Below, one piece after another: positions 6,567 through 18,719 of a stretch of DNA of 24,130 bases (the stretch's first letter is position 1; each line of letters opens with the position of its first letter). The DNA is taken from the IMG/VR virus record IMGVR_UViG_3300030116_002621, positions 1 through 24,130 of that record; one strand, 5' to 3'. A program made the position numbers and the translations under genes. The stretch is from a virus. Under the pieces are notes generated by a model. It was given only the letters and a program-made list of their open reading frames with translations. It searched no databases and was not told the DNA's origin.

Positions 6567-6972
6567 TTGATTGCTCCAATAAATCGTTTGCTTCAAAGAT
6601 GACTTTTCCATTCAATCTACGCAATTCACAATACAACTGATATGGAGTCCAAATCCAAAATTTTCTAACATTACATAGATGTTTTATGAAACTTACGCAA
6701 TAAAATAGCCTTGGAATGTAAATTGGCTTGTCTTTTACGTCAATTTCGATGCATTCGCCACCTAAATGCATATTTAGGACTAATTCTGTAGCTTTTTCGC
6801 CTTTTAGTGTCTTAAAATCAAAGCCATTTGTTGTAATCTCTACTTTTTGCCATAAATCTAGCTCAGGTTCGTACCTGACAGCATAAACATGAGAAAAACC
6901 ATAACGATATTTAGTAAATAGCTTCCATAATCCAATATTTTTGCTTTCACAGAAGCATATTATCCATTTCAT
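6559..6972 (-). CDS. 137-aa protein, possible permuted NlpC/P60-like fold
   Basis: This protein begins with hydrophobic strand-like 'MKWIICFCES' and has an early His in 'YGFSHVYAVRYE' (residues about 24-35). It has a later Cys in 'RLFYCVSFIKHLC' (residues about 88-100), followed by 'WIWTPYQLYCELR'. A His early and a Cys-initiated helix late is the order of circularly permuted papain-like (YiiX/NlpC-related) proteins, and 'TPYQLY' after it fits known small phage proteins of this type. The His-Cys assignment is inference; no activity is proven. The start overlaps the TerL stop (ATGA). It could act on peptidoglycan or in virion maturation, or be a non-catalytic family member. Confidence 0.65.
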   Translation of the reverse strand: MKWIICFCESKNIGLWKLFTKYRYGFSHVYAVRYEPELDLWQKVEITTNGFDFKTLKGEKATELVLNMHLGGECIEIDVKDKPIYIPRLFYCVSFIKHLCNVRKFWIWTPYQLYCELRRLNGKVIFEANDLLEQSNG

Positions 6973-8507
6973 ATTGCTCTTTTCCTACTAAAACGACTAT
7001 TTCTACGTTTCATGCGATCAAATGGGTTACTTGCTCTTTCAACTACAGTTACACTAGCTCTTTGACCACCTAACATAACTTTTCTACCCTCTCCACCACC
7101 AAGAAAGGCATATTGTAGTGCATCATGGCAATGTGAGAATCTATTTTTATCAGGTTTTTCCTCATATCTCTCACTACCCATATAATACATTCTTTTATAT
7201 TGATAACCACCTTCAAATCCTGAAATAAGGTTAGTACAAGTAGGACTAACACTTAATGATGGAAAACCATCTGTCATACGATTAATAACAGATTCTACTG
7301 CTTCTACTCTGACAGATATGTCATTTGATGGTGCTGGGTAAGCATTGATACCAGCTGCTCTTAGCATCATAAATGGTGTATGCTCAGATACTTGTGCCAT
7401 TTGATTTCCAGCTGGATCTCCAATAAACTTAAATGTGAGCTTATCCCATTGATTCTTTGATATTTCTTTTTTTAGTATATCTGCAAATCTGATAGCACCC
7501 ATGTCTTTACCAATTATTTCATGAAAAATAATCCATTTACCAGAATGTAATTGTTGGCAAAAGACAGCAGAAGGGGATCGACCAAAGTCTATGCCAACAA
7601 TCACATCACTCTGTTCCGTTGGCACTAAAGGCTCACTTGAAACATGAGTATCTCTTCTGAATGTTGGATAAACTGGTTTACCATCTAAAAGAGCTTGGTA
7701 TTCATTAAGAACATATACTTTGACCCAAGCTGGTGATTTTCCTAAGATTATCTTGTCATAATATTCTGCTTGCAAATTATCCCTATTCTCTGAATCAAGG
7801 TTAGGGTCATAACCTGATAAATTACCATGAATGTCTTTTTTCTCATACATTGCAGAGGGTTGCGAATAAAAATTCCAATCGTCAGGTTTTACCATTAATA
7901 ATTTTTCTTCAGCAGTCATATATTCAGGTACAGGAACTTCTCCAGCAACAATACCCCACCAATGATCTTCAGATGGAGCATTTGTGTCCATGATTACACC
8001 ATACCAACTTGGGCCACCTTCCCTCATTGCTGGATATCTACCAACACGCATAGTGCAAGCATCAATTATATTTTTATTTATTTCTCTAGCTTCATTAACC
8101 CAAACACCAGTTAGTTCTAATGAAAGCAGCTTTTTTACATCTTCAGTCTTATCTAAAGCTAAAAATATTACTTCAAGTTCTACTGTAGTTTTATCTCCAA
8201 GAGAAAAGCATACATTATGAGTATATGGAGGTGACCATACAAAACGTCCTAGTTCATCACTAAACCAATCTCTCCAAGTTTTTATAGTAGTTGTTTTTAG
8301 TTGTGGATTAGTATTACGAATTACTGCCCATCTGCTTTTTCTAACACCTTGTTCATTTGGTTGTTGTGCAATAGATCTTCTCATGATCTCCATGCAACAA
8401 GCTACAGATTTACCACTACCTACTGGGCCTCTTATACCTCGTACAAAAGACCCATCTTTCATAAATGCTTTGGCTACTTTCCCTGGGGGTTTATAGTCTA
8501 GTTTCAT
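6969..8507 (-). CDS. Terminase large subunit (DNA packaging ATPase/nuclease)
   Basis: This 512-aa protein has the full TerL layout. The Walker A motif is GPVGSGKS at residues 27-34. A Walker B-like hydrophobic strand ends in acidic residues in 'LTGVWVNEAREI' (about 130-141). The C-terminal RNase H-like nuclease has its acidic residues in 'VIVGIDFGRSPSAVF' (about 297-311), 'KFIGDPAGNQ' and 'SHCHDALQYAFLGG'. It powers DNA translocation into the procapsid through the portal and cuts the concatemer. It overlaps the upstream 225-aa gene by ATGA and the downstream 137-aa gene by ATGA. Length and motifs are complete, with no sign of decay. Confidence 0.95.
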   Translation of the reverse strand: MKLDYKPPGKVAKAFMKDGSFVRGIRGPVGSGKSVACCMEIMRRSIAQQPNEQGVRKSRWAVIRNTNPQLKTTTIKTWRDWFSDELGRFVWSPPYTHNVCFSLGDKTTVELEVIFLALDKTEDVKKLLSLELTGVWVNEAREINKNIIDACTMRVGRYPAMREGGPSWYGVIMDTNAPSEDHWWGIVAGEVPVPEYMTAEEKLLMVKPDDWNFYSQPSAMYEKKDIHGNLSGYDPNLDSENRDNLQAEYYDKIILGKSPAWVKVYVLNEYQALLDGKPVYPTFRRDTHVSSEPLVPTEQSDVIVGIDFGRSPSAVFCQQLHSGKWIIFHEIIGKDMGAIRFADILKKEISKNQWDKLTFKFIGDPAGNQMAQVSEHTPFMMLRAAGINAYPAPSNDISVRVEAVESVINRMTDGFPSLSVSPTCTNLISGFEGGYQYKRMYYMGSERYEEKPDKNRFSHCHDALQYAFLGGGEGRKVMLGGQRASVTVVERASNPFDRMKRRNSRFSRKRAI

Positions 8508-9337: not shown

Positions 9338-9769
9338 TTAGTCTACGTTGAAGTTTATATTCACGGAAGTATTGCTAGTCTTAGGCGCATCTACTCTGAG
9401 TCCAGCACGATCCATCAGATCTCTACTTGCTTCCAGTCTTACGTGTGCTGACTTTGCATTGAGCAGTTCTCTCATAGTTGCCAATGCCTGTGTTGCGTCC
9501 CAACCCAAACAGTTCATTGCTATCTGCTGTCTGTACTCCACAACATGAGGCTTTGCAATGGTTTTGTATGCCCATGCCTTGTTCCTACCTAACCTCTTTG
9601 CTCCCTCTGTGGGGTTGCAACCATCATGCAACATTGCGTGTACTAACTCAGCCTGTGCTTCTGTTATCTGTTTGTGATTGGGTAGTAGCAATTCACTATG
9701 CTTTTGTATATCCTCTAACGGAACTATTGACCCTTGGTATCGTTGCTGTTGTTCGTTACTTGCTTTCAT
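9338..9769 (-). CDS. Terminase small subunit-like protein
   Basis: This 143-aa protein has an N-terminal helix-turn-helix-like part ('AELVHAMLHDGCNPTEGAKR', 'LGRNKAWAYKTIAKPHV', residues about 38-75). A helical segment follows with 'NAKSAHVRLEASRDLMDRAG' (about 105-125). A small HTH followed by '.vR.eAsr.lldraG' is the signature of many phage small terminase subunits. It is the first gene of the leftward virion operon, two genes before TerL. It would recognise the packaging site and load TerL. No strong Shine-Dalgarno is seen; the predicted transcription start lies only about 20 bp upstream. Confidence 0.65.
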   Translation of the reverse strand: MKASNEQQQRYQGSIVPLEDIQKHSELLLPNHKQITEAQAELVHAMLHDGCNPTEGAKRLGRNKAWAYKTIAKPHVVEYRQQIAMNCLGWDATQALATMRELLNAKSAHVRLEASRDLMDRAGLRVDAPKTSNTSVNINFNVD

Positions 9770-9787: not shown

Positions 9788-9828
9788 ACTCTACGAGAGT
9801 ATAACCATAGGTGCTATATCAATGTCAA
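9788..9828 (-). promoter_or_regulatory. Sigma70-like promoter of the virion operon with a palindrome at the start site
   Basis: On the minus strand a perfect TTGACA lies at 9823-9828 and TATACT at 9798-9803, with a 19-bp spacer (18 if TTATAC is taken). The predicted start is near 9790, about 20 bp before the TerS ATG. ACTCT/AGAGT (9788-9800) forms an inverted repeat across the -10 end and start site and could be an operator. It is the only strong promoter-like signal I find for the whole leftward operon. Confidence 0.6.
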
Positions 9829-9854
9829 TTCACATCTGTAAGTCCTTGTTATTA

Positions 9855-9901
9855 CGAATGAATATGAGGTGGCATCGAGCCACACACATTCATATTGTTC
9901 G
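9855..9901. other. Stem-loop with ATCGA loop (copy 1)
   Basis: GTGGC (9869-9873) pairs with GCCAC (9879-9883) around an ATCGA loop. AATATGA (9861-9867) pairs with TCATATT (9890-9896), and CGAA (9855-9858) with TTCG (9898-9901). The three stems are nested with small internal loops. The ATCGA loop is shared with the hairpin at 10167-10203. Confidence 0.6.
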
Positions 9902-9974
9902 ACAACAATCCCTTTCATCACATTCCCTGACAGGGGTCTAAGAGAAATTTTAGGTCTAGACAGACCCTTTATAC

Positions 9975-10052
9975 CTTTTGGAGTAGCCGTTTCCTTTTGC
10001 AAGTCAGACGTGAAGAACGTCTGTTTGGCAAAAGGGACGTGATACCCAAAAG
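9975..10052. other. Long nested hairpin with GAAGA loop (copy A)
   Basis: The apical stem CAGACGT/ACGTCTG (10005-10011 with 10017-10023) closes a GAAGA loop. Below it CCTTTTGC (9993-10000) pairs perfectly with GCAAAAGG (10028-10035). Further out CTTTTGG plus GTA (9975-9985, one bulged A) pairs with TACCCAAAAG (10043-10052). The result is a 78-bp three-tier hairpin. Confidence 0.65.
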
Positions 10053-10060
10053 CAGATACA

Positions 10061-10094
10061 AGCCCATCTGACGTGAAGAACGTCAGGTTGGGTT
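10061..10094. other. Hairpin with GAAGA loop (copy B)
   Basis: CTGACGT (10068-10074) and ACGTCAG (10080-10086) close a GAAGA loop. A lower stem pairs CCCA with TGGG, with a T on the left and GT on the right left unpaired. Copies C and E show the same T/GT asymmetry at the base of the apical stem. Confidence 0.65.
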
Positions 10095-10101
10095 CGATGC
10101 A

Positions 10102-10134
10102 GAATAATATGTGCTTCATGGCACGATATTATTC
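10102..10134. other. Strong hairpin, 13 bp, loop TTCATG
   Basis: GAATAATATGTGC (10102-10114) pairs with GCAC (10121-10124) and ATATTATTC (10126-10134), with a single bulged G at 10125. The loop is TTCATG. It is not followed by a T-run in either direction, so it does not look like a simple terminator. Confidence 0.65.
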
Positions 10135-10166
10135 TTTACTCATGGCTACGTACTGTGCTGAATAAC

Positions 10167-10203
10167 ACGATATCATCAGGGTATCGAACCCTGATTCAAT
10201 CGT
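10167..10203. other. Stem-loop with ATCGA loop (copy 2)
   Basis: ATCAGGGT (10175-10182) pairs perfectly with ACCCTGAT (10188-10195) around ATCGA. An outer ACGAT/ATCGT stem (10167-10171 with 10199-10203) is separated by a symmetric 3x3 internal loop. On the minus strand the tip reads GGGTTCGATACCC, like a tRNA T-arm, but no tRNA body is present. Confidence 0.65.
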
Positions 10204-10240
10204 AAAACTTTGTTGTATGCCTTTGGCAGTACAAAGTTTT
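10204..10240. other. Two-tier hairpin abutting its neighbours
   Basis: AAAACTTTGT (10204-10213) pairs perfectly with ACAAAGTTTT (10231-10240). Inside, TGCC pairs with GGCA around TTT. It starts at the base after the previous stem ends and stops at the base before the next one starts, which suggests coaxial stacking in one larger structure. Confidence 0.65.
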
Positions 10241-10310
10241 CTGTTCGTAAGAATTTTGTCTGACGTAAAGTACGTCAGGTCAAAACCGTGAAGTCACTTT
10301 CTAAGAACAG
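10241..10310. other. Nested hairpin, variant loop (copy C)
   Basis: The outer CTGTTC/GAACAG stem (10241-10246 with 10305-10310) encloses TTTTG/CAAAA. The apical stem is CTGACGT/ACGTCAG (10260-10266 with 10272-10278). The loop here is AAAGT instead of GAAGA; its two end bases are complementary and can extend the stem by one pair. The T/GT asymmetry below the apical stem matches copies B and E. Confidence 0.6.
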
Positions 10311-10380
10311 GCTTACTACTACTACTACGTTCTGCACTGCTCACGTACCGAGGAGCTATACCATACCATAAAACCCCTAC

Positions 10381-10427
10381 AGAAATGCGACCTACTGTGC
10401 TGTGTCAATGTTACCCCTCGCATTTCT
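10381..10427. other. Hairpin with perfect 10-bp stem
   Basis: AGAAATGCGA (10381-10390) pairs perfectly with TCGCATTTCT (10418-10427) around a 27-base loop. It is the first branch inside the long-range stem. Confidence 0.6.
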
Positions 10428-10432
10428 TAATT

Positions 10433-10495
10433 CTTTCTAAGTTCGTCAAGATAAACTTTTTCGTGAAGAACGAAAAACTGGACGAACTACAGAAA
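10433..10495. other. Nested hairpin with GAAGA loop (copy D, different stem)
   Basis: TTTTTCGT (10457-10464) pairs with ACGAAAAA (10470-10477) around GAAGA. AGTTCGTC (10440-10447) pairs with GACGAACT (10481-10488), and TTTCT with AGAAA outside that. The stem differs from the other copies in at least four pairs while the loop and the closing CGT/ACG are kept, which is covariation within one molecule. Confidence 0.65.
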
Positions 10496-10509
10496 TTATC
10501 TTCGGGGGC

Positions 10510-10545
10510 AAGCTTGTCTGACGTGAAGAACGTCAGGTCAAGTTT
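10510..10545. other. Hairpin with GAAGA loop (copy E)
   Basis: CTGACGT (10518-10524) and ACGTCAG (10530-10536) close GAAGA. AAGCTTG (10510-10516) pairs with CAAGTTT (10539-10545), including one G-T, again with the T/GT asymmetry. The apical part is identical to copy B, but the lower stem is different in sequence. Confidence 0.65.
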
Positions 10546-10635
10546 TCTTGGTATGAATGACGACCACAAGTGAGCAGTACACAACGCAGTAGGTAGTGCT
10601 TTAATATCAATAACTGTACAAAAGGAGATGTTACA

Positions 10636-10875
10636 ATGAAACAGTTAGATTTATTTATCAAAAGCCAAGCAAGTGATCTAGAGGTTCTAGAGGATATGGT
10701 AACGTATCAAGATACTTCTACAGTTGATCTACTTGATACAGAAGAACGTATGCCATTCAGGGAGCAGAAGCTACCATCTAGTCAGCTGGACTGGGATATA
10801 CAATGTGCTATCGAGGCTGGTGATTGGGATCGTGTCCATGAATTGAATACAATCAAGCATGACATGAACAATTAA
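10636..10875 (+). CDS. Hypothetical acidic early protein (79 aa)
   Basis: This 79-aa acidic protein starts MKQLDLFIKSQASDLEVLED and ends with 'LDWDIQCAIEAGDWDRVHEL', which resembles a short helical hairpin. There is no recognisable domain. It is the first gene of the rightward operon, directly after the structured non-coding region, with AAAGGAGATG before its ATG. Phage genes in this position often encode small host-takeover proteins; that is inference from place and charge. Confidence 0.75.
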   Translation: MKQLDLFIKSQASDLEVLEDMVTYQDTSTVDLLDTEERMPFREQKLPSSQLDWDIQCAIEAGDWDRVHELNTIKHDMNN

Positions 10876-10938: not shown

Positions 10939-11625
10939 ATGACATATCAAATTGAAGAATCAAACAAGACTAAATCAGAGATCGAAGCTGGTAAGCAGTT
11001 AGATCAAATCACTACTGAACAGCTTGATGCTATTGCTAGAGAGTTCAAGCCCAAGTCTACTTACACAGCAGATTGGGAGGGAGAGTTCATCAGACGTGCA
11101 TTGTCATTTGCTGAGATGTTTGAAGATGGCAATGAGGTCATCATCAAAGCCAAACTTCAGGATCAGTTACCTCGTATGTTTGAGAAGATGAGGGACAATG
11201 TCTTGGAACGTGCAGAGAAGTTGATCAGAGAACGTACAGTCAAGGTTCGTCAGGACGTTGGCATTGAGATCACTGGCAACATCTTGGAGGATCACGACAA
11301 GAAGATTGACCAGATGCGTCAACAGTATGCATCACTCAATCATGCATTCAAGCTATTGCTTACACACTTCAGACCTATGATTCAAGGTCAGACTGGTATT
11401 GACAATGGCAAGTACACTCAGCTTCATGAGTTTGCCAAGGTACATCGTATGAAGAAACGTAACGAGAAGATGACACTAGATACTCTTGTCAACAGTCGTG
11501 ACGTGTATGATGATCTTCAAGCTGAGAGATCTAAGGTTTATCCTATCAGTTCACATCATGAGGAACTGATGCTTGATATCTCTAATCAAGACGGGATCAT
11601 TGAAATGCCTGAAGATCTTGAGTAA
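10939..11625 (+). CDS. Hypothetical highly charged early protein (228 aa)
   Basis: This 228-aa protein is mostly helical and charged. It has 'AEMFEDGNEVIIKAKLQDQL', 'ERAEKLIRERTVKVRQDVGI' and an 'HEFAKVHRMKKRNEKMTLDT' segment, and an acidic end ('EMPEDLE'). I recognise no family. Codon use differs from the virion genes: Arg is often CGT and Ile often ATC, as in the SSB and exonuclease genes, which may mean high expression. AAAGG precedes the start. A good rho-independent terminator lies just after its stop, so it probably forms its own strongly expressed unit. Confidence 0.8.
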   Translation: MTYQIEESNKTKSEIEAGKQLDQITTEQLDAIAREFKPKSTYTADWEGEFIRRALSFAEMFEDGNEVIIKAKLQDQLPRMFEKMRDNVLERAEKLIRERTVKVRQDVGIEITGNILEDHDKKIDQMRQQYASLNHAFKLLLTHFRPMIQGQTGIDNGKYTQLHEFAKVHRMKKRNEKMTLDTLVNSRDVYDDLQAERSKVYPISSHHEELMLDISNQDGIIEMPEDLE

Positions 11626-12752: not shown

Positions 12753-12782
12753 GGTTGGACTGCATTAACCTAGACGGAAGTG

Positions 12783-12811
12783 GGGTGGGCTTGGCAGAGC
12801 CTACCCTTTTC
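12783..12811 (+). terminator. Likely terminator after ssb
   Basis: GGGTGGGCT (12783-12791) pairs with AGCCTACCC (12798-12806) with one G-U and loop TGGCAG, followed by four T's. It is GC-rich, but the T-run is short. It ends before the ribosome-binding site of the DUF3310 gene. Confidence 0.6.
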
Positions 12812-12835
12812 TACTGTATATTATTGGAGATCAGA

Positions 12836-13081
12836 ATGATATCGCCTCAACATTACGAACAATTTGAAATAGAACCAGTAGAGTTCATAACACAAAATCG
12901 CCTCAACTACTTACAAGGCAACATCATAAAATATATTCTACGATACAAACAAAAGAATGGTATCGAAGATCTAGAAAAAGCCAAAACATATTTGGAATAC
13001 TTAATCAACTTTGAAAAGGAGGGCAGATGTCTAAAGACTGGCAAGAGCAGCTTCAAGAAGAAGAAGCATACGAGAAGGTAG
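12836..13081 (+). CDS. DUF3310 protein (possible T7 gp1.7-like nucleotide kinase relative)
   Basis: I use the ATG at 12836 (GGAG upstream), because the longer frame would begin at a TTG and run through the terminator after ssb. The 81-aa protein reads 'HYEQFEIEPVEFITQNRLNY', 'LQGNIIKYILRYKQKNGIED' and 'LEKAKTYLEYLI'. This is the DUF3310 pattern (HY...iEpidfi...l....GNviKYilRy..K.g.eDL.KA..YL). The same domain occurs in T7 gp1.7, a nucleotide kinase, but activity in this short form is unproven. The C-terminus is basic and overlaps the next gene by 55 bp. Confidence 0.8.
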   Translation: MISPQHYEQFEIEPVEFITQNRLNYLQGNIIKYILRYKQKNGIEDLEKAKTYLEYLINFEKEGRCLKTGKSSFKKKKHTRR

Positions 13082-13302
13082 TTGCAAAACTTACCAAACG
13101 TACAGCTGATCTTGTTGATGCTAACAATCATATAGGCCATTTACAATGGAAGCTATATGAAAGAGATACGTTACTTATTGAAACTAATCAGAAACTAAGG
13201 GAGTTGCAAAATGCAATTACTAACAACATCATTGAGAAAACAACTCATCGCAAACCACCATGCAAACAAAAAGGCACAAAAGGAAGAAAAAGGAGTGATT
13301 GA
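13027..13302 (+). CDS. Coiled-coil hypothetical protein (91 aa)
   Basis: This 91-aa protein is strongly helical and charged ('WQEQLQEEEAYEKVVAKLTK', 'LYERDTLLIETNQKLRELQN'), with a basic tail ('KPPCKQKGTKGRKRSD'). A coiled coil over residues about 5-65 is likely. It overlaps the DUF3310 gene by 55 bp in another frame and the DUF2958 gene by 92 bp. Such long overlaps are unusual, and the true end or the neighbour's start could be misjudged. GGAGGG lies before the ATG. Function is unknown. Confidence 0.6.
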   Translation: MSKDWQEQLQEEEAYEKVVAKLTKRTADLVDANNHIGHLQWKLYERDTLLIETNQKLRELQNAITNNIIEKTTHRKPPCKQKGTKGRKRSD

Positions 13303-13567
13303 CTTTGCTCCTGTAGTTAAATTTTTCTTTCCTATTGGTGCAGCTACTTGGCTTATCACAGAGATGGACGAAGAAGAAATGATGTTCGGTCTATGTGATT
13401 TAGGTCATGGGTTTCCAGAACTTGGTTATGTTCATCTACATGAATTACAAAATACCAAATTTATGAATGGTATGGTGTCAGTAGAAAGAGATAAGCATTG
13501 GAAAGCCAAAGGCACATTGCAAGATTATACTAACAAAGCTCAATTACATGGAAGGATCGTAGCCTAA
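13211..13567 (+). CDS. DUF2958 domain protein
   Basis: This 118-aa protein has the DUF2958 core: 'VVKFFFPIGAATWLITEMDE' (residues about 35-54), 'MMFGLCDLGHGFPELGYVHL' (about 57-76) and 'SVERDKHWKAKGTLQDY'. In the family these are 'K.f.P...wTWyltE.d...fGLc.G...ElGyfsl.El......pvERD..f'. The domain is common on plasmids and integrative elements beside antirestriction-type genes; its biochemical role is not established. The start at 13211 has GGGAG upstream but overlaps the coiled-coil gene by 92 bp. The stop overlaps the next ATG (TAATG). Confidence 0.8.
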   Translation: MQLLTTSLRKQLIANHHANKKAQKEEKGVIDFAPVVKFFFPIGAATWLITEMDEEEMMFGLCDLGHGFPELGYVHLHELQNTKFMNGMVSVERDKHWKAKGTLQDYTNKAQLHGRIVA

Positions 13568-13788: not shown

Positions 13789-14141
13789 TGATGACACTAA
13801 ATCTAAAAATAAATGACGATACTTATGTTATCAGAGGTAAGGCCTCAAAGGTAGTTGACTTTATCAGTCATTTTTATGATGATGAATTTTCAATCCATAA
13901 GAAAGAAAAAGAGTATATCTACATCAATGATGAAGATGCTAAGAAACTTTCTCAGGATCAAATCAAGAGAATCAAAACTTTTTGTGAGGATAATAAAATC
14001 AATGATTTTCAGACCTACGAAACTATGACTCCTATCAAAGTTTCAATGGATAGTAATGAGATCAGGCATATGACCTCAGTTCAAAAAGACTTTCAGAGTT
14101 TGATTCATGGATTGATTAACCAAGCCAAAGCAAAGGCTTAA
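13785..14141 (+). CDS. Hypothetical protein (118 aa)
   Basis: This 118-aa protein starts at the first of three consecutive Met/ATG-like codons; the ATG at 13785 overlaps the upstream stop (ATGA). The N-terminal part ('NLKINDDTYVIRGKASKVVD') looks like a small beta domain, and the middle is charged and helical ('DAKKLSQDQIKRIKTF'). The end is 'FQSLIHGLINQAKAKA'. I recognise no family. It closes the cluster of small genes before parB. Confidence 0.65.
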   Translation: MMMTLNLKINDDTYVIRGKASKVVDFISHFYDDEFSIHKKEKEYIYINDEDAKKLSQDQIKRIKTFCEDNKINDFQTYETMTPIKVSMDSNEIRHMTSVQKDFQSLIHGLINQAKAKA

Positions 14142-14148
14142 TTGAGTA

Positions 14149-14184
14149 GGGGGATCAAGGAAATGTTACAAAAAAGATCCCCCA
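14149..14184 (+). promoter_or_regulatory. Inverted repeat upstream of parB-like gene
   Basis: An 8-bp GGGGGATC (from about 14149) faces a perfect GATCCCCC about 19 bp downstream, 30 bp before the ParB-like start. There is no T-run after it. Candidates are a weak terminator for the upstream cluster, or a binding site (ParB-type proteins often bind inverted repeats near their own gene). Confidence 0.4.
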
Positions 14185-14212
14185 TAAACATACTAGACTA
14201 AGGGAGTTTAAT

Positions 14213-15817
14213 ATGCAAATAGCATTAAATCAACTAAAACCAAATCCTAATAACGTAAGAAAAGTAAAAGGTAATGGTCTTGATTCTCTTATCGCCTCAA
14301 TCAAATCTAGAGATCTACTACACAACCTTGTAGTAAAGAAGAATGGCTCTGGATATATTGTTATTGATGGCAACAGAAGATTCCAAGCTCTTACTAAAAT
14401 ACATGGTAAAGATTCAACAGAAATGATTCCATGTAAAGTCATTGAGGAAAACGAAACAGAGATTGGTGTAATGGCCAATATGCTTCGTGAAGGTATGCAC
14501 CCTCTTGATGAATCAGAAGCTATCAACAAAGTTATGGCAGATGGTGAGTTTTCTTATGATGAACTAGCAATCAACTGGGGTCAGACTACTAAGTGGGTCA
14601 AACAACGTGTTGCTCTTGCTGAATTATCTAAGAAAGTCAAAGCTGCATTTCGTAACAATGAGTTTGGTATCGGTATTGCTCAACTATTTACCAATGTCAA
14701 CAAAGATACCCAGGATAAATTGTATGATGAATGTCATGGTTACTTTGACTATGACGATATACAAAGAATGATTGGTCAGGTCAGACTCCTGAGATCAGAA
14801 GTAATTATTCCTGAGAAACACAAGCTATTCAAGTCTATTGATTTTGATGGTGATTTGTTTTCTGATGCTCAGTATGTAGCTGACATGAAACAGTATATGC
14901 CTCTTGCAGTACAATTCATTGAAGAAAAACAAAAGTATTACAAAAGATTATACAAAGAATGTGTAGTCATTGATACTTATCCACAAGAAGTCAAAGGCTT
15001 GCTCAAGAACAAAGATCAAGTCTATGAGCATGAGATCAAAAGCCAAGAGATTGATAGGAAAAGTCTTGATGTAGTTATTACTGCAATACCTATCAAGGGT
15101 ATATTCTATGTGTACAAATACAGAGATAAGACAGAACTGTCACAAAAAGAACTAGATGCAATTGACAAAGGTGAGATACCAGAACTGGGTCTAGCTGATA
15201 TGTCTAATCCTCAAATTGATATGTCTAATGATATGTTTTATGACTATCTTAGAGGTATGATGTGGGATCATGAGCCAAAGGTTCAAGATTATGTACAATC
15301 AGGTGGTATGCATCTTACATCTGCTATACTTTGCAATGCCATGTTACCACATTGGTGGCATGAAGAGGGTGATGCAGAATCAACACATATAGATCACTAT
15401 ACAGATATCACATTCAAACTACATGGAGGAACAGATGGGTACTTTGCTAATATTTACAAAGAAGCTATTGCTTATGCTAAAGAGTGGGAATGCAATACTC
15501 TCCAGTATTTTCTCCGTAAAGAACAAAGTGAGTTATCTGCTATATTGTATAAAGCAGTGGTGGGCTGTATGCATCGTACTTATGCGTTCAAAGCACACAA
15601 AGAAATCTTCAAAATCCCAGTTGCTCCAAATTGGTTCAGTCCAACAGAAGAGTGGCTCAACAAATACAAAATAACTCAGCTTCGTTTACTTGCTAAGAAG
15701 CTAAATGTAGATGTATTACCTACTGACAACAAGAAGATGGTAATGCATAGACTTCTTGCAGCATTTAGTGAGGGTGCAGAATTTGATCCTATCAAGTTCT
15801 TAGATGAAGTAGAGTAA
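14213..15817 (+). CDS. ParB-like protein with C-terminal SAP-like motif
   Basis: This 534-aa protein starts with a ParB/Srx-type domain: 'MQIALNQLKPNPNNVRK', 'LIASIKSRDLLHNLVVKK' and 'YIVIDGNRRFQALTKI' (residues about 48-63, the G.RR box that contacts nucleotide in ParB CTPases). 'ANMLREGMHPLDESEAI' and a helix-turn-helix region ('FSYDELAINWGQTTKWVKQR', about 112-132) follow. The long middle is unfamiliar. Residues about 486-518 ('KITQLRLLAKKLNVDV...KKMVMHRLLAAF') fit a SAP-like DNA-binding helix pair. No ParA is visible in the window. A role in plasmid-like partition, DNA condensation or regulation is possible. GGGAG precedes the ATG. Confidence 0.8.
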   Translation: MQIALNQLKPNPNNVRKVKGNGLDSLIASIKSRDLLHNLVVKKNGSGYIVIDGNRRFQALTKIHGKDSTEMIPCKVIEENETEIGVMANMLREGMHPLDESEAINKVMADGEFSYDELAINWGQTTKWVKQRVALAELSKKVKAAFRNNEFGIGIAQLFTNVNKDTQDKLYDECHGYFDYDDIQRMIGQVRLLRSEVIIPEKHKLFKSIDFDGDLFSDAQYVADMKQYMPLAVQFIEEKQKYYKRLYKECVVIDTYPQEVKGLLKNKDQVYEHEIKSQEIDRKSLDVVITAIPIKGIFYVYKYRDKTELSQKELDAIDKGEIPELGLADMSNPQIDMSNDMFYDYLRGMMWDHEPKVQDYVQSGGMHLTSAILCNAMLPHWWHEEGDAESTHIDHYTDITFKLHGGTDGYFANIYKEAIAYAKEWECNTLQYFLRKEQSELSAILYKAVVGCMHRTYAFKAHKEIFKIPVAPNWFSPTEEWLNKYKITQLRLLAKKLNVDVLPTDNKKMVMHRLLAAFSEGAEFDPIKFLDEVE

Positions 15818-17800: not shown

Positions 17801-18449
17801 AACCTCAGCTAAATCGGTATGGGAAGTTCTATCAAAAATCGACGTGTCAGGGTACATGGAGAAGAAAAATGGACTCGACTATGTATCATGGACTCATGCT
17901 TGGTCAGCAGTGAAACAAGCATTTCCTACTGCATCATTCATGAAGCACACATTTGTTGACAATCAGCACAATGTTTTACCATTCATGCGTGATTACAAGG
18001 GCAATACTTTTGTCAAAGTTTCTGTCAAGATCGAATCAATCAACATTGAAGAGATCTATCCAGTCATGGACAATCGTATGCAAGCAATCAATGCAGAAAA
18101 GACCAGCAAGTTCAACAAGGACAAGGTGGGTCGCATACCTGATGCAACAGAAATCAACAATGCTTTCCAACGTGCATTGACTAAGTGTCTTGCATATCAT
18201 GGTCTTGGCATCAACGTCTATGCTGGTGAAGATCTACCTATGGGTGACATGATCGAGAAAACCATTGACAAAGATGAAGAGGCTGTGCAAGCATTCGAAA
18301 TTGCTTTGAAAGATGTCAAAGACAGAGATCAACTAAACGAGGTATGGTCATTGAATGCAGCACGATACAACACTATGGGTGTACAAGCTCAGGACAAAGT
18401 CCAGCAGCTGTTCAAGTCTACTCGTACTAAACTAAAGATTGCTAACTAA
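17790..18449 (+). CDS. Sak3/DUF1071-type single-strand annealing protein
   Basis: This 219-aa protein reads 'SVWEVLSKIDVSGYMEKKNG', 'LDYVSWTHAWSAVKQAFPTA', 'GNTFVKVSVKIE' and 'NAFQRALTKCLAYHGLGINV'. These are the DUF1071 blocks ('vd.s..iEkK.gl.YLsW..Aw', then 'i.nA..RcltKalA..GlG'). That family contains phage annealing recombinases of the Sak3 group. It would anneal the ssDNA made by the YqaJ exonuclease, in the Red/RecET manner. The C-terminal third is helical and less conserved. GGGAAG lies before the ATG inside the end of the exonuclease gene. Confidence 0.85.
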   Translation: MATKTSAKSVWEVLSKIDVSGYMEKKNGLDYVSWTHAWSAVKQAFPTASFMKHTFVDNQHNVLPFMRDYKGNTFVKVSVKIESINIEEIYPVMDNRMQAINAEKTSKFNKDKVGRIPDATEINNAFQRALTKCLAYHGLGINVYAGEDLPMGDMIEKTIDKDEEAVQAFEIALKDVKDRDQLNEVWSLNAARYNTMGVQAQDKVQQLFKSTRTKLKIAN

Positions 18450-18473
18450 TGCAATCTATTCCGAGGCAATGCT

Positions 18474-18719
18474 ATGGAATTTGAAACTCCTGACAGTATT
18501 GCTTCGGAAATAAAACGACTACTTATATTAATTAAGAATAAAAACTTTATTGATTTTCCAAGACAAGAGTTTGATTTTGAATTTGAAGTTGGTTCTGTGC
18601 CAGCTTGTGTAACAATATCATTAGAGATTCGAACTCCTAATCTTATTGAAATTAATTTAGATGATGAAAAACCTAATAAAAACAATGTGATACAGATAAA
18701 AGATTACAGGAGGGATTAA
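18474..18719 (+). CDS. Hypothetical acidic protein (81 aa)
   Basis: This 81-aa acidic protein ('MEFETPDSIASEIKRLLILI', 'DFPRQEFDFEFEVGSVPACV') has alternating strand-like segments. It ends 'KNNVIQIKDYRRD'. No family is recognised. The gene is AT-rich with ATA/ATT and AGA codons, unlike the recombination genes upstream. A GGAGG overlapping its end serves the next gene. It is real by coupling; the role is unknown. Confidence 0.65.
   Translation: MEFETPDSIASEIKRLLILIKNKNFIDFPRQEFDFEFEVGSVPACVTISLEIRTPNLIEINLDDEKPNKNNVIQIKDYRRD

Follow-up and report, generated by a model that had tools for sequence, protein, structure and literature searches.

The question raised by this locus is whether a block of nested hairpins, lying between two divergent gene sets of a marine phage, encodes a structured RNA or serves the phage in some other way. 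The source DNA is a tailed-phage contig, of which a 24-kb stretch (24,130 nucleotides, called the window below) was analyzed. The block occupies the point at which the minus-strand packaging and structural operon diverges from the early and recombination genes on the plus strand. The features surrounding it are as follows.

6969-8507, minus strand: TerL, in the packaging and structural operon
9338-9769, minus strand: TerS (small terminase), in the same operon, beside the block
9798-9828, minus strand: predicted late promoter of the TerS operon, read from the sequence (TTGACA at 9823-9828, 19-bp spacer, TATACT at 9798-9803)
9855-10600, minus strand: candidate large structured non-coding RNA, 5' end near 10600 and 3' end near 9855, both approximate (from folding z-scores, covariation, strand tests and the lack of an Rfam match)
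10636-10875, plus strand: p79, first gene of the early and recombination set
10939-11622: p228, query of the homologue search

The window also encodes SSB, a RecE-like exonuclease, a Sak-like annealing protein, a RuvC-like resolvase and a ParB-like protein; a scan of its 24 kb for tRNA and tmRNA genes found none. Among named phages, EXVC031P, which infects Pelagibacter, has the closest TerL, with 54.6% identity. Proteins with DUF3310 and DUF2958 are encoded in the early region at 12755-13081 and 13211-13567 on the plus strand. The N-terminus of p79 is MKQLDLF, and the p79-like proteins of far relatives start with NQLELF, KQLELF or TQLNLF. The QLDLF start resembles QL[SD]LF, a motif by which proteins bind the beta sliding clamp, so that p79, the first early protein, may be a binder of the host clamp. 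In L004, L021, L022 and L031 (related loci are denoted by L numbers) a small open reading frame for a predicted membrane protein (MTKLQQLQTI...) lies between the structured region and p79.

The block folds far better than expected from its composition. The 781 nt at 9840-10620 have a predicted energy of -269.7 kcal/mol on the plus strand, where 20 dinucleotide shuffles have a mean of -191.9 and a standard deviation of 7.65 (z = -10.2) and none folds as well; the minus strand has -277.9 kcal/mol (z = -9.4). When folded in 160-nt windows, the block has a mean z of -3.3 on the plus and -3.5 on the minus strand, compared with -0.7 and -0.6 in 289 windows elsewhere. Weak values, between 0 and -2 on each strand, occur in four of the nine 160-nt windows inside the block; the cutting of the long-range stem by windows of this length accounts for them at least in part. 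Control coding stretches from the same DNA gave z values of -2.2 to +0.8. The predicted hairpins match 10167-10203, 10204-10240 and 10241-10310, together with a long-range domain closed by 10322-10344 and 10570-10592. A preliminary description of this DNA had listed at least eight strong hairpins, several of them abutting, and a long-range closing stem, had judged the block to be unlike coding sequence, and had proposed a comparison with shuffled sequences of the same composition. Folding reproduces the hairpins at their coordinates and the closing stem (23 nt, 87% complementary), and the shuffled and coding controls agree with the remaining points. The lengths of the indels between relatives are not divisible by three, and relatives exchange entire hairpins, showing that the block is not coding. 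Isolated 160-nt windows with z below -3 on both strands occur at 1681-1840, 13041-13200, 14081-14240 and 18401-18560; the first of these, flanked by a late gene on either side, may represent a terminator-like hairpin.

Searches of IMG/VR with p228 and TerS returned 56 and 33 loci, respectively, two sets that overlap since some loci lie on the same contig. Homologues of the block are found on tens of IMG/VR contigs, always between TerS and p79, where the gap measures 506-1194 bases in loci having both genes. By a rough measure of 10 shuffles each, most of the relatives tested have a gap with a better folding energy than its shuffled versions, and the signal is weak or absent on one or both strands in some, such as L021, L030 and L034. 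Comparison with blastn to INPHARED phage records gave no match to the block, and a search of 84,980 bacterial and archaeal genomes for an exact pattern taken from the other left-end domain found none. Pattern matches in L104, L107, L108, L110 and L111 were rejected as unrelated coding sequence. The equivalent gap between TerS and the early genes of EXVC031P (L094, 4157-4375) holds a different, very large single hairpin with z of about -6.5 on both strands.

The element is assembled from exchangeable hairpin domains. Close relatives gain, lose or replace whole hairpins cleanly, while their TerS proteins remain 97-100% identical; the locus thus illustrates the evolution of a large RNA through the exchange of cassettes beside a near-constant protein. 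Two right domains alternate, A in the window and B in L010, L011, L015, L017 and others, and in L065 and L069 a left part like that of the window is joined to a B right domain. A covariance model of B finds full-length matches in L083 (97.5 bits) and L080 (93.3 bits) at the expected place and strand, and partial matches in L040, L049 and L084 (rough E-values of 3e-6 to 6e-5). On the A-type domain of the window the B model scores 8.6 bits (E = 6.6), which is chance level, so that A and B are taken to be alternatives for a single slot and not established homologues. At the left end, the hairpin at 9860-9893 has an alternative in K, a conserved junction domain of 80 nt that replaces or adjoins it in many relatives; L004 has both.

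The homologous loci of this marine phage clade maintain base pairing through compensatory change. In the alignment of the A right domain (A2, nine sequences) 98.5% of the cells are paired and 15 of the 69 pairs have double-sided changes; in that of the B right domain (A1, 13 sequences) the values are 95.5% and 13 of 52. When B is extended to remote relatives (A4), 95.1% of the cells are paired and 24 of the 52 pairs are double-changed, in an alignment made to the covariance model of B and hence leaning toward it. None of 500 shuffles scored as high in any of the three alignments, a count that ignores kinship, which is offset partly by the slid controls (35-50% paired in A2 and 35-55% across alignments), and that favors the structures tested, as these were derived from the same alignments. 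Double-sided changes affect 5 of the 20 pairs of K, a pair count matched by 48 of 500 shuffles; its cell count and score were reached by none of the 500, with one K hairpin misaligned in four sequences. The block therefore very probably encodes a conserved structured RNA. This agrees with the proposal of a large, ornate non-coding RNA, new or divergent, in the preliminary description, which had looked to homologues for compensating pairs.

If read on the minus strand, the right domain is the earliest transcribed part. The parts of the element, in the 5' to 3' direction of that strand, are as follows.

10312-10600, minus strand: right "A-type" domain (alignment A2), with a 26-pair long-range closing helix, inner helices and hairpins
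10570-10592, no strand assigned: right arm of the closing stem, partner of 10322-10344
10509-10538, minus strand: hairpin cassette of repeat family D1, 90% identical to 10059-10088
10440-10488, minus strand: composite hairpin in the right domain (A2 helices 7 and 8), with the recurrent tip at 10461-10473
10322-10344, no strand assigned: left arm of the closing stem, partner of 10570-10592 (inverted repeat I1)
10241-10310, minus strand: two-branched hairpin CTGTTC...GAACAG, found by folding, with a variant of the tip at 10263-10275
10204-10240, minus strand: 10-bp hairpin, its stem covarying in relatives and its loop variable in length
10167-10203, minus strand: hairpin whose outer stem is conserved and whose inner stem-loop is interchangeable (alignment of relatives)
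10101-10135, minus strand: hairpin AGAATAATATnGTGC / GCACnATATTATTC in plus-strand letters (alignment of relatives)
10059-10093, minus strand: hairpin cassette with the recurrent tip at 10071-10083
9986-10037, minus strand: hairpin with the recurrent tip at 10008-10020
9860-9893, minus strand: left-end hairpin with loop UCGAU on the minus strand, adjoining the late promoter

Compensatory changes are spread over these parts. The closing stem exchanges C-G for G-C, G-C for A-U and A-U for U-A in A2, and the composite hairpin at 10440-10488 has 100% of its cells paired, with double-sided changes at six pairs. Two inner pairs of the hairpin at 10241-10310 are double-changed in alignment A3 (C-G to U-A and A-U to U-A). 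The stem of 10204-10240 changes from AAAACTTTGT/ACAAAGTTTT to AGAAGTTTGT/ACAAACTTCT in relatives, and that of 9986-10037 from AGACG/CGTCT to AGAGG/CCTCT in L001 and L002, while the stem of 10101-10135 is rewritten with compensation in L065, L056 and L004. Within the outer stem of 10167-10203 the inner stem-loops are unrelated, being ATCAGGG..CCCTGAT in the window and GCATGGGG..CCCCATGC in relatives. The cassette at 10509-10538 is shared by the window and L004, and the other seven right-domain homologues lack it; given its 90% identity to 10059-10088, it appears to be a duplicated unit or one that is gained and lost.

Certain loops recur on these changing stems. The 13-nt hairpin tip ACGTGAAGAACGT, with at most two mismatches, has five copies, all in the block, where 0.19 would be expected in the whole window. 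Across relatives the loops GAAGT and GAAGA (WCUUC on the minus strand) cap six different stems in nine hairpin sequences. The loop ATCGA (UCGAU on the minus strand) caps several stems in five hairpin sequences, two of which are nested lengths, and the minus-strand loop of 10167-10203 includes the self-complementary UCGA. In the minus sense, WCUUC and UCGAU remain constant while the underlying stems change, suggesting that these loops make contacts, and the self-complementarity of UCGA would allow loop-loop dimers. The tips are wholly absent from many relatives. A kissing interaction of the WCUUC tips with the loop of the 10101-10135 hairpin was considered and rejected, as it is not retained in L065 and L069.

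The strand can be judged from the wobble pairs and from consensus folding. In the least biased test, G-U pairs were forbidden during folding and single (1x1) mismatches flanked by pairs were then scored. Such mismatches in Watson-Crick-only stems are A-C on the plus strand (that is, G-U on the minus strand) at nine positions and G-T on the plus strand at none (two-sided sign test, 0.004 if the positions are independent); mismatches at stem ends are equal in number, 35 of each. Wobble counts in unions of predicted pairs favor the minus strand in the domain alignments, and G-U equals A-C in the whole-length A alignment. Consensus folding against column shuffles favors the minus strand in the B right domain (z of -9.8 on the minus and -3.1 on the plus strand), the A right domain (-16.7 and -14.4) and the A left part (-10.2 and -6.9), slightly in one more set and not in another; the exceptions are set BL2, which favors the plus strand (-5.9 on the minus and -7.3 on the plus strand), and the remote-group set G5, which is about equal. 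The signal is weaker in the A-type domains of the window than in the sister B-type. Given a conserved structured RNA, it is likely to be read from the minus strand, from p79 toward TerS, and the plus strand used in the preliminary description was probably the wrong one.

This bears on the possibility that the plus strand carries a leader of the early operon, the tips U-GAAGA-A serving as boxB-like sites for an N-like antiterminator. In phage lambda, the nutL boxB loop is GAAGA closed by U-A, and lambda-type boxB sites have a GNRNA-type pentaloop on the transcribed strand. The five copies of the tip offer the same loop and closing pair. However, the loops of the block are GAAGA, GAAGT, GAAGG and AAAGT, of which the last three break the pentaloop rule, the wobbles favor the opposite strand and many relatives lack the tips. 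We regard such a leader as very improbable.

The block might instead act as single-stranded DNA, its extruded hairpins forming an initiation or packaging signal beside the terminase. Sites of the cos and pac type often lie near TerS, which the block adjoins, and both strands fold well. Single-stranded DNA tolerates G-T pairs, so the strand bias by itself does not exclude an element of this kind. Nevertheless, nested long-range helices over several hundred nucleotides, compensatory change and domain swaps are typical of RNA, and the structure exceeds the needs of known DNA sites. A hairpin site for replication, packaging or partition explains the conserved wobbles and the exchange of whole domains less well than does an RNA, and a DNA element appears improbable.

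The ends of the RNA were sought in the flanking sequence. A sigma-70 scan gave two promoter-like sites only, both to the right of the element and fewer than in shuffled sequences; no convincing minus-strand promoter was seen just right of 10600, nor by eye a good one at either end of the RNA, and no intrinsic terminator was found near 9855. The ends are thus approximate, and an independent transcription unit is putative. A pair of -35- and -10-like motifs, varying as TNGACA and TATNNT, recurs with its 19-bp spacer before TerS across relatives. This spacer, which is unusual, is kept across the clade and is 17 bp in EXVC031P, and about 30 bp of conserved sequence lie upstream; the site suggests an activator-dependent late promoter.

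A minus-strand transcript might also run from near p79 into TerS as a cis-acting leader of the late operon, its fold modifying RNA polymerase or otherwise controlling the late genes, much as the put RNA of phage HK022 acts on RNA polymerase by antitermination. The direction of reading is toward TerS, and the RNA is placed immediately upstream of that gene in every case, each homologue being beside TerS; no terminator-like site was found on the minus strand between the two. The late transcription unit is long, so that antitermination would be useful. However, in the relatives examined, the promoter-like site TNGACA-N19-TATNNT is conserved in the interval separating the RNA from TerS, and the late genes thus appear to be served by a promoter of their own that lies downstream of the RNA. 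Furthermore, 600-750 nt with swapped domains far exceeds the known put and nut leaders. A leader function is therefore considered unlikely.

Another role might be in replication, as a pre-primer whose folded transcript leaves an R-loop that primes the host DNA polymerase. The ColE1 RNA II and the origin transcripts of phage T4 prime replication through R-loops. In seven relatives of 33-38 kb (L006, L009, L017, L040, L079, L080 and L084), neither a family-A DNA polymerase nor a DnaB-like helicase was detected, an absence that covers two replication families only. The SSB, recombination and ParB-like proteins of the window and the clamp-binding-like start of p79 would fit this role, as would the minimum of the cumulative GC skew, which falls at the block. 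However, the switch in skew coincides with the change of coding strand and is thus uninformative on an origin, and no origin motif was identified. The chance that the RNA is a pre-primer is judged to be small. A search of the same seven records for a T7-type RNA polymerase gave no match, the positive controls being unmatched too.

The reading preferred here is a large folded non-coding RNA of about 600-750 nt, transcribed from the minus strand and acting as a scaffold or oligomer; taken as a whole, it has about an even chance of being correct. A distinct RNA would be made during infection and would act by its fold, not by coding. The conserved tips on varied stems would be docking points for loop-loop contacts or for a protein, and the UCGA loops could let like molecules kiss, so that the RNA would resemble GOLLD and ROOL in working as a scaffold or oligomer. 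The free-standing scaffold role itself, drawn by analogy with these RNAs, has an even chance at best and perhaps slightly less. A bolder form, which we think doubtful, is that copies join through the UCGA and WCUUC tips of their exchangeable hairpin arms to form a particle made of RNA alone, comparable to the cages of GOLLD and ROOL though independent of them, in a new class confined, as far as searched, to this marine clade, in phages without detected DNA polymerase A or DnaB helicase.

To our knowledge, very few large ornate phage RNAs have been described, none with an established function. The element would add a further class, one that covaries strongly, has numerous natural variants in which domains are swapped, and keeps a fixed place beside the terminase, in phages whose nearest cultured relative infects Pelagibacter. 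Such a class would allow direct tests of which modules are dispensable, of the loop contacts, and of a role in replication, late expression or packaging.

Several known systems invite comparison. The tip read on the plus strand has the closing pair and GAAGA loop of the lambda nutL boxB, possibly by chance, but the stems, copy number, loop variants and favored strand differ. HK022 put is likewise a structured RNA upstream of a phage operon; it consists of two short hairpins, whereas the element has about ten times that length and is separated from the operon by a promoter-like site. ColE1 RNA II has a similar size and an elaborate fold, and replication by a host polymerase is plausible here, but no origin motif was found, the element belongs to a phage and not a plasmid, and no structural relation is claimed. 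Like the large ornate phage non-coding RNAs, the block is a long non-coding stretch with a structure supported by covariation. Rfam searches of the window and 20 related loci gave no family at the gathering score, and permissive searches (E up to 5) gave chance miRNA models only, with no GOLLD, ROOL, OLE or HEARO; the membership of the GOLLD/ROOL class raised in the preliminary description was thus not borne out at either threshold. In the open-licence papers searched, a scope outside which most subscription journals lie, no description of the element was found.

The GOLLD and ROOL RNAs form RNA-only cages, and their function is not known (PMC12286853). GOLLD resembles the element in being phage-encoded, several hundred nucleotides long and ornate, with one part far more conserved and a function not known (PMC12286853). 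It differs in lacking any sequence or structure match here and in often, though not obligatorily, lying near tRNA islands, whereas the window has no tRNA; the domains of the element, unlike those of GOLLD, are swapped wholesale. ROOL is also phage-encoded and several hundred nucleotides long, with many hairpins and no known protein partner (PMC12286853), whereas the element lies outside any tRNA island, matches no Rfam model and has TerS as its conserved neighbor. Judged from its sequence, we read the element as a putative new class, without an Rfam family, among the large ornate phage RNAs.
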